Of a DNA stretch of 33,626 nt, positions 350-1,980 are shown one piece after another (the first letter of the stretch is position 1; the number at the start of each line of letters is the position of its first letter). The notes under the pieces were generated by a model. That model worked only from the letters and a program-made list of their open reading frames with translations. It was not told where the DNA came from and searched no databases. The position numbers were made by a program, and so were the translations under genes. Origin of the DNA: an uncultured bacterium. GTDB lineage: Bacteria > Cyanobacteriota > Vampirovibrionia > Gastranaerophilales > Gastranaerophilaceae. The stretch spans positions 1 to 33,626 of the forward strand of contig CADBXV010000011.1 of NCBI GenBank assembly GCA_902798645.1, in the 5' to 3' direction.

Positions 350-643
350 ATGAGCGAAGAACAAAAAGATGAACAACAGTATGTAGAAGTTTTATGGGAA
401 GACGGAAGTGTTATTAAGTGTGAAATCTATGATGTGATAGATTTTGAAAATAAAACTTATGCTCTGTTAATTCCTCTCGGTGAAGACAATGATGATACCG
501 AAGTAATTGTAATGGAATATGTTGAAGAAGACGAAGACAATGCGCATTTCCAAACAATAGAAGATGAAGACGAGTTTAACAGAGTTTGTGAATATGTTCA
601 ATCTTTTGAAGAAGATGAAGATTTTGATGATGAGGAAGAATAA
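350..643 (+). CDS. DUF1292 family acidic protein (YrzB-like)
   Basis: A 97-residue, very acidic protein whose central part fits the DUF1292 pattern: an E-x-x-WEDG start, a Y-DVIDFENKTYALLIPL beta-hairpin block, then E-x-x-VMEY followed by a residue stretch ending in EDEDEFNRVCEYV. The last 14 residues are almost entirely Asp/Glu/Phe. The family has no established biochemical function. It starts 4 nt after the RuvX stop and is followed within 3 nt by the next gene, so the three are almost certainly one operon, as in the yrzL-yrrK-yrzB cluster of Bacilli. ATG is the only sensible start. Confidence 0.85.
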   Translation: MSEEQKDEQQYVEVLWEDGSVIKCEIYDVIDFENKTYALLIPLGEDNDDTEVIVMEYVEEDEDNAHFQTIEDEDEFNRVCEYVQSFEEDEDFDDEEE

Positions 644-645
644 TC

Positions 646-1980
646 TTGTTTGAACGATTTACTGAAAGGGCGCTGAATGTTGTATCCGAAAGCCAAAGGC
701 TTGCCGGTGTGATGGGTTGTTTGGAGATTTCACCGGAACATCTTTTGTTGGCGCTTGTGAATGAAGCAAAAGGCGTTTCTTTGAAACTATTTCGAATGTA
801 TGGTTTGTCTTCGGAAAAACTACAACCTGAAATTGCTAAATATGTTAAAACAAGTCATAAAAGATATGAAAATCTTACTTTCGATTTTGCGTATAAAGAA
901 ATTCTAAAACATACGCTTGATTTGGCAAGCAAGTCAGGAAATAGCAATATTCTTTTTGAACATTTATTTTTATCAGTAATAACAGATAAAAATTCTAATA
1001 TTCAATCTATTTTGAATAAATTTAATTTTGATGTTTATACATCCAAAGAGATATTAAACAAATTGGTTGAAAGAAAAATAAAGCGTCTTGAGCACCCTGA
1101 AGCTGAAGAAGATACAGTAAAAAGTGATTTTGAATCTGTTTATCAAGGGCAAGCTTTATCCGGTGTATTTGACAGGGCAGTTTCTAAATTGTCTGCCAAA
1201 GGATATGAAATTTTGGGAACTGAGCAGATTATTTCATCAATTCTGGAAACGCAAGATTCAGAGCTTGTTGAAACAATAAATAAATACGGACTTAATAATG
1301 AAAATTTTGAGGCTAAGCTTGCTGAACAGCAAAATCGTCAGTCTGAATATGAAGGTAAGAAAATTATTTTTACGCCTAATGCATTTCTAATGATAAATAA
1401 TGCATTTCAAATAGCAAAGGAATTGGGTTCTTCTGAAATAATGCCTGAACATATAGTTTTAAGTCTTTTAAAAAACAAAAAAGGTATTGCATACGATATT
1501 ATAAAAGAACTTGGTATAAACGGAGATGAACTTTCGGAAGAAATCCTAAAACCGATTGAAAAACAAATGCCTGAAACGCTTTCTATTATGAAACTTGCAA
1601 AGGAAGAAGCAAGAAGAATAGGCAGAAATGTTGTCGGAACAGAGATGTTTTTGCTTGGTATTATTGCAGAAGGTACAAGCAAAGCATACGAAGTTTTGAA
1701 TGAATTAGAAATTACTATGAAAGATGCAAGACTTGTTGTTGAAAGCCTTGTAGGATATGGTGATGAATATTTCGATAAAGAAATAACTTTTACTCCGAGA
1801 GCCAAAAAGGTTCTTGAACGGGCATGGTTATCAGCTAAAAAATTAAACAAACAAAAAATAGAAGCAGTAGATTTATTACTTGCAATTTTAGACGAGCCAA
1901 ACTCAATAGCTATGAAAACTCTTGACCAACTTGGTGTTGATGCCGTAGAAATCAGACATGGCATTAACGGAAAATATTAG
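646..1980 (+). CDS. Stand-alone tandem Clp N-terminal repeat protein (no AAA+ domain)
   Basis: A 444-residue protein opening with MFERFTERALNVV, the canonical start of ClpC-type N-domains; this supports the TTG start, which has AGGAAG about 8 nt upstream inside the preceding gene. I count about six half-repeats of the Clp-N helical type, i.e. three Clp R-domains: near residues 1-65, 75-140, 170-225, 240-300, 310-370 and 375-440. Recognisable cores are ISPEHLLLALV, NILFEHLFLSV, EIMPEHIVLSLL, VGTEMFLLGII and IEAVDLLLAIL. No Walker A/B, sensor or ClpP-loop motif follows; the frame stops at 1980 and the next 160 bp is non-coding. Clp N-domains recognise substrates and adaptors, so this may be an adaptor, a competitor of a full-length ClpC, or a substrate-holding protein. 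That role is inference. Confidence 0.85.
   Translation: MFERFTERALNVVSESQRLAGVMGCLEISPEHLLLALVNEAKGVSLKLFRMYGLSSEKLQPEIAKYVKTSHKRYENLTFDFAYKEILKHTLDLASKSGNSNILFEHLFLSVITDKNSNIQSILNKFNFDVYTSKEILNKLVERKIKRLEHPEAEEDTVKSDFESVYQGQALSGVFDRAVSKLSAKGYEILGTEQIISSILETQDSELVETINKYGLNNENFEAKLAEQQNRQSEYEGKKIIFTPNAFLMINNAFQIAKELGSSEIMPEHIVLSLLKNKKGIAYDIIKELGINGDELSEEILKPIEKQMPETLSIMKLAKEEARRIGRNVVGTEMFLLGIIAEGTSKAYEVLNELEITMKDARLVVESLVGYGDEYFDKEITFTPRAKKVLERAWLSAKKLNKQKIEAVDLLLAILDEPNSIAMKTLDQLGVDAVEIRHGINGKY

Follow-up and report, generated by a model that had tools for sequence, protein, structure and literature searches.

The choice of substrates by the ClpCP protease is normally set by the N-domain of ClpC together with small adaptors. 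A gene at the start of a 33,626-nt stretch of DNA (the window) from an uncultured bacterium of the Gastranaerophilales raises the question of what such N-domains might do apart from the motor, as it was predicted, from the letters alone, to encode three tandem Clp N-domains and no ATPase. This prediction was borne out by the six half-repeats of the protein, by structure models, and by Pfam matches without any AAA+ family, and the product of the ORF is confirmed as a real, conserved, motor-free triple ClpC head.

The locus

Table 1. Features of the locus, in window coordinates (R1 to R6, half-repeats; D1 to D3, domains).
Feature	Coordinates	Strand	Description
RuvX, 5′ part missing at contig edge	2..346	+	PF03652, E 2.5e-23, from residue 19 onward
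DUF1292 protein, 97 aa	350..643	+	PF06949, E 8.6e-14; directly 5′ of the triple Clp-N gene
RBS-like GAGGAA (putative)	632..637	+	8 nt 5′ of the TTG, within the end of the DUF1292 gene; proposed from position only
Triple Clp-N protein gene	646..1980	+	444 aa, TTG start, stop included; backed by homologues and model
D1	646..1083 (residues 1–146)	+	R1 (T6, R8, E31) and R2 (F79, K84, E105); ClpC-like start MFERFTE
D1–D2 linker	1084..1137	+	Low confidence, pLDDT about 55–61; carries HPE
D2	1138..1560 (residues 165–305)	+	R3 (G191 T192 E193 Q194) and R4 (F242 T243 P244, E268 H269)
D3	1561..1977 (residues 306–444)	+	R5 (E333) and R6 (R385, K387, K424 kept; Glu106 equivalent lost)

The TTG start of the triple Clp-N gene lies 2 nt past the stop of the DUF1292 gene (Table 1), which is context and has no part in the mechanism proposed below. 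The operon with RuvX and DUF1292 noted in the original prediction is real, but the contig edge cuts into its RuvX ORF, and the link proves to be local to one subgroup. Bases 1–59 of the window are an exact 59-nt duplicate of 774–832, inside the triple Clp-N gene, joined to mid-RuvX, such that about the first 19 codons of the RuvX ORF are foreign. This duplicate is most likely a chimaeric contig end, that is, an assembly artefact. The ClpC-like start and the lack of downstream AAA+ remnants, both remarked on earlier, hold, and the gene is followed by a separate TetR gene (2130–2750). The downstream region of this genome (1981–2750) thus carries TetR, against TilS-like and Hpt-like genes in most relatives; two close relatives (L040 and L043) also deviate.

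Three ClpC-type N-domains and no ATPase

Searched against Pfam, the 444-aa protein matched Clp_N (PF02861) alone, over five stretches (E 8.6e-50; 167 bits, cut-off 20.7), and an orthologue (L139) gave six. Clp_N was found in all 68 diverse family members scanned, with D2 also positive in 68/68, and no AAA+ family matched the 444-aa protein or any of the 68. PF02861 being the sole Pfam family in the protein, the ClpS and MecA folds (PF02617, PF05389) are absent from it. NCBIfam matches were confined to the N-terminal parts of ClpB, ClpK, ClpA and TssH models. The two AAA+ modules with Walker A/B motifs that characterise ClpC and other Hsp100 proteins are missing, the ORF stopping after D3. A histone-fold Pfam match in 15 of the 68 members was dropped, as it was gone at E 0.001 in ten divergent members scanned singly.

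The internal repeats were assigned using separate HMMs of the first and second halves of the ClpC N-domain, scored in 14 species. The first-half model outscored the second in R1 (14/14), R3 (13/14) and R5 (14/14), and the second-half model outscored the first in R2 (14/14), R4 (12/14) and R6 (14/14). The half-repeats therefore alternate as three pairs, giving three complete N-domains, and each folded domain holds two of them, half 1 then half 2. Identity to the N-domain of the ClpC encoded in the same genome is 29.5% for D1, 23.3% for D2 and 40.4% for D3 (z over shuffles 24, 18.5 and 40, respectively).

An AlphaFold2 model of the full protein (mean pLDDT 83.5) revealed a four-helix unit occurring six times; its pTM of only 0.57 is too low for the arrangement of the domains relative to one another to be read from it. 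Foldseek and VIA-align comparisons of this model placed ClpC N-domains at the top, with Z up to 22.8 and mainly on D3, and Hsp100 N-domains matched D1 at Z about 18. These matches hardly touched D2, which was modelled alone for this reason (pLDDT 84.0), giving Z 19.3 and an rmsd of 2.3 over 138 residues to 5gui, with other ClpC N-domains matching equally over 134–139 residues. A structural check for fewer than three Clp-N domains, suggested at the outset, thus found all three, in the full model and in D2 alone. By structure match, residues and identity, these are N-domains of the ClpC type.

Distribution and origin

Whole-genome searches found full-length orthologues in about 141 of 146 genomes of the order, one copy each, the five exceptions being G165, G002, G102, G109 and G117; in a family sample, 90 of 97 genomes gave a full-length match. 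The gene-free lineages are two genera (g3 and g39) and G165. The 148 homologues read from their loci are 442–467 aa long, share a common end point and mostly have TTG starts; none ends in an AAA+ module, the outcome that would have indicated truncation here. Outside the order, among the matches listed from the rest of the class and from a profile search of 292 phylum genomes, there was no full-length match, and only the heads of ClpC-length ORFs matched, on D3. Nor was there any sign of spread by plasmid or phage, where no place covers at least 80% of the protein and the matches are partial ClpC-like pieces. The named records are labelled Candidatus Gastranaerophilales, Melainabacteria or ‘uncultured bacterium’, plus a few odd ones. 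Two public records labelled ‘Acinetobacter sp.’ (L068) and ‘Fusobacterium sp. CAG:439’ (L083) carry the gene, and so seem to be mislabelled genomes of the order. The open-access literature yielded no paper describing a protein of this type from Gastranaerophilales, nor any on similar tandem Clp-N proteins that lack an ATPase.

In an N-domain tree, D1, D2 and D3 each formed one group across families (SH-aLRT 97, 90 and 99, respectively), indicating a single triplication that predates the diversification of the order. The tree is a quick one with poorly resolved deep branching; in it D3 is the closest of the three to the ClpC heads, and is the slowest and most ClpC-like domain. A sister order with large genomes (group f8) has many ATPase-free Clp-N chains per genome, variable in number and length and with two to four domains each. 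In one such genome a 619-aa chain with four Clp-N domains and a 523-aa chain with three, both lacking an ATPase, lie directly upstream of clpC (L163, 1272–7987), and similar genes are clustered in two further loci (L162 and L164). The sister-order domains fall outside the D1, D2 and D3 groups, one long-branch domain being placed beside D2, so that such arrays probably arose more than once.

Gene neighbourhood and a stand-alone ClpX zinc finger

The arrangement 531-aa gene, RuvX, DUF1292, triple Clp-N, TilS-like and Hpt-like was present in about 73 of 101 loci, and in 1 of 20 among the divergent loci; the TilS-like, Hpt-like and ClpP-like names are our own assignments, made by reading the sequences. 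As the neighbours differ in divergent families and the RuvX/DUF1292 link is local to one subgroup, the operon tells little about function, and it was rejected as a general functional clue.

Some loci also encode a stand-alone ClpX-type zinc-finger protein (85–110 aa, PF06689) without AAA+. Its gene lies upstream of the triple Clp-N gene and in the same direction in about 41 of 101 loci (about 2.3–2.6 kb upstream in L102), and, of the genomes searched, 12 of 16 from the order encode the protein (here 89–106 aa) alongside a full ClpX, against 0 of 6 from outside; it is absent from G000. The conserved 531-aa protein, encoded between the zinc-finger gene and RuvX, occurs in 76 of 101 loci (three genes upstream in L061, for example). 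Since the zinc finger was seen in the order and not in the outgroups, its distribution, like that of the triple ClpC head, is limited to the order, and both are Clp heads without a motor. It is conceivable, if doubtful, that the order has its own layer of trans-acting heads, the triple ClpC head and the ClpX zinc finger often sharing one operon, that jointly replace adaptors of the ClpS/MecA type and steer ClpC and ClpX.

Clp machinery of the genome

The genome itself encodes a full ClpC (837 aa), a ClpB-like protein, ClpX and two ClpP. With ClpC and ClpP both present, the protein might serve ClpC as an adaptor or decoy, as suggested earlier. ClpS was found in none of 19 genomes (this one and relatives), with five control genomes positive, and MecA in none of the same 19, with two controls positive.

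McsB was found in none of 23 genomes, and the McsB of a Bacillus record used as control was recovered at 1e-78 in the same search. This control record (L186, NZ_AP028965.1) was deposited as a plasmid and holds ctsR-mcsA-mcsB-clpC-radA-disA, a set of genes that is normally chromosomal. The idea of a scaffold for phospho-arginine is therefore without its writer.

The ClpC of this genome keeps the M-domain motif EF and the equivalents of E426, E435 and E359. D356, the AAA1 partner of K85, is replaced by serine, and the N462 position by lysine, leaving only some of the docking contacts intact.

Residue conservation

Resting ClpC has its N-domain fixed in place through T7, R9, K85 and R122, and it is by disrupting these contacts that MecA, phospho-arginine and cyclic peptides exert their effect (PMC12583610). 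Residues of the triple protein were mapped in Bacillus ClpC numbering. The pocket glutamates (E32, E106) are 94–100% kept in R1–R5, and R6 has lost its own. At the position of the cap threonine, R1 (T6) and R4 (T243) always carry threonine, R6 carries T or S, R2 has mostly S or D, and R3 and R5 lack the residue. The phospho-arginine pocket, made of cap threonine and glutamate, is consequently complete in R1 and R4, giving D2 one complete pocket (T243, E268), and is partial in R2, R3, R5 and R6. As a main role, a phospho-arginine scaffold is weakened: the same glutamates are equally kept in the organism’s own ClpC, in the absence of a detectable McsB, so their conservation is no evidence for phospho-arginine binding.

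The other contact residues differ between the domains. In D1 the groove phenylalanines are retained, F2 at 85% (otherwise Leu or Ile) and F79 at 100%; in D2 the equivalents of K85 and R9 are lost; and in D3 the equivalents of R83, K85 and R122 are R385 (100%), K387 (97%) and K424 (88%). A His-Pro-Glu triplet (residues 150–152, bases 1093–1101) is invariant in 68/68 members amid an otherwise variable D1–D2 linker, and the C-terminal helix of D3 has the invariant residues D432, E435, I436 and G439. The triplet, resembling a short binding motif, and the invariants of the last helix look like candidate partner-contact sites.

Proposed function and alternatives

With moderate confidence, we see the protein as a trivalent version of the ClpC N-domain, freed from the ATPase, which would act on the ClpC(P) pathway in trans, be it as adaptor or as regulator. 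D1 and D2 would bind clients or degrons through their remaining ClpC peptide and pocket sites, given that D1 keeps F2, F79 and the cap threonine and glutamate of pocket 1, and D2 keeps T243 and E268. D3, which keeps the residues for docking to AAA1 and the M-domain and is without the pocket glutamate, could replace or compete with the N-domain of ClpC on the ClpC ring. The residue pattern would accordingly fit docking by D3 and binding by D1/D2, and the net effect would be either that clients are delivered to ClpC three sites at once or that the resting state of ClpC is tuned. Action in trans on ClpC is favoured by the retention of one copy per genome throughout the order, together with a ClpC and two ClpP and with ClpS and MecA not found in the genomes sampled. 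Against it, the gene is not adjacent to clpC in this order and is missing from a few lineages, the docking contacts in the own ClpC are incomplete, D2 is without the K85 and R9 equivalents, and the pocket residues that remain may be structural. The arrays directly upstream of clpC in one sister-order genome hint, independently, at a place for such arrays in the ClpC pathway.

Other readings have been weighed against the same data. That the gene is a broken ClpC or an assembly artefact, a suspicion encouraged by the chimaeric contig end nearby, is already refuted, as 148 homologues in independent assemblies share its length and end, a full ClpC is encoded elsewhere in the genome, and each domain has its own conservation pattern. 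A rather unlikely alternative is that the protein is a sponge, mopping up peptides or toxins directed against the ClpC N-domain, or competing with ClpC for clients and adaptors, and so protecting ClpC instead of helping it. The precedent is mycobacterial ClpC2, a ClpC relative with the N-domain only, which binds cyclomarin and has a protective effect on cells (PMC10030653), and whose C-terminal domain matches the triple Clp-N models at Z 15–16, and the retention of both groove phenylalanines in D1 would suit such a role. However, the extra N-terminal dimerisation/DNA-binding part of ClpC2 is absent here, the gene sits within a housekeeping-type operon in one subgroup and is not an autoregulated single gene, and its near-universal retention points to a constitutive role more than to defence needed only now and then.

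A stand-alone peptide-binding scaffold or holdase outside the ClpC pathway, with D1–D3 binding other partners and HPE and the C-terminal helix making contacts of their own, would explain why D1 and D2 are far from ClpC (23–30%) while the ClpC heads stay nearly identical, and why the family-specific invariants HPE, E435, I436 and G439 are non-ClpC residues; the ClpC-specific surface residues that D3 keeps at 88–100% make this unlikely. An accessory role on the ClpP ring, as for plant ClpT1 and ClpT2, is very improbable: their structures match D2 and D3 at Z 17.6–19.8, the genome has two ClpP, and a clpP-like gene lies a few genes downstream in 13 loci, but ClpC heads match as well or better, and the ClpT match is not specific because all Clp-N domains share this fold. 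The preferred reading, of a trivalent head acting in trans on ClpC, makes the protein, retained as a single copy order-wide, a good candidate for a helper or a brake of the ClpC protease that has so far gone unrecognised. The order comprises gut-associated, non-photosynthetic cyanobacteria without ClpS, MecA and McsB in the sampled genomes, and would provide a natural test of whether N-domains can work in trans; D3, in which docking residues are separated from the phospho-arginine pocket, is a ready reagent.

Comparison with known systems

Among the known systems is the N-domain of ClpC itself (Hsp100/ClpC, PF02861), with which the protein shares its fold, half-repeat order and initial residues, D3 being 40% identical to the N-domain of the genome’s own ClpC; the difference is that three such domains are here in one chain, without AAA1, the M-domain, AAA2 or the ClpP-binding loop. 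Plastid ClpT1 and ClpT2 are likewise ATPase-free Clp-N proteins, from the wider cyanobacterial/plastid lineage and of similar fold. Plant ClpT is, however, a single domain, against three here, and binding to the ClpP/R core is a feature of ClpT. The multi-Clp-N genes of the sister order (L162–L164) also place two to four Clp-N domains in one chain with no ATPase, but they vary in number and length, are many per genome, have domains outside the D1, D2 and D3 clades, and include one set upstream of clpC. Mycobacterial ClpC2 (Rv2667 type) resembles the present protein as an ATPase-free ClpC N-domain in a genome that encodes a full ClpC elsewhere; it differs in being an autorepressor with one C-terminal Clp-N domain after a dimerisation/DNA-binding part (PMC10030653), as opposed to three here, with Clp-N from residue 1. 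Single-domain, ATPase-free versions of the Clp N-domain are thus already known, from ClpC2 (PMC10030653) and ClpT, and the triple head is a new variant.
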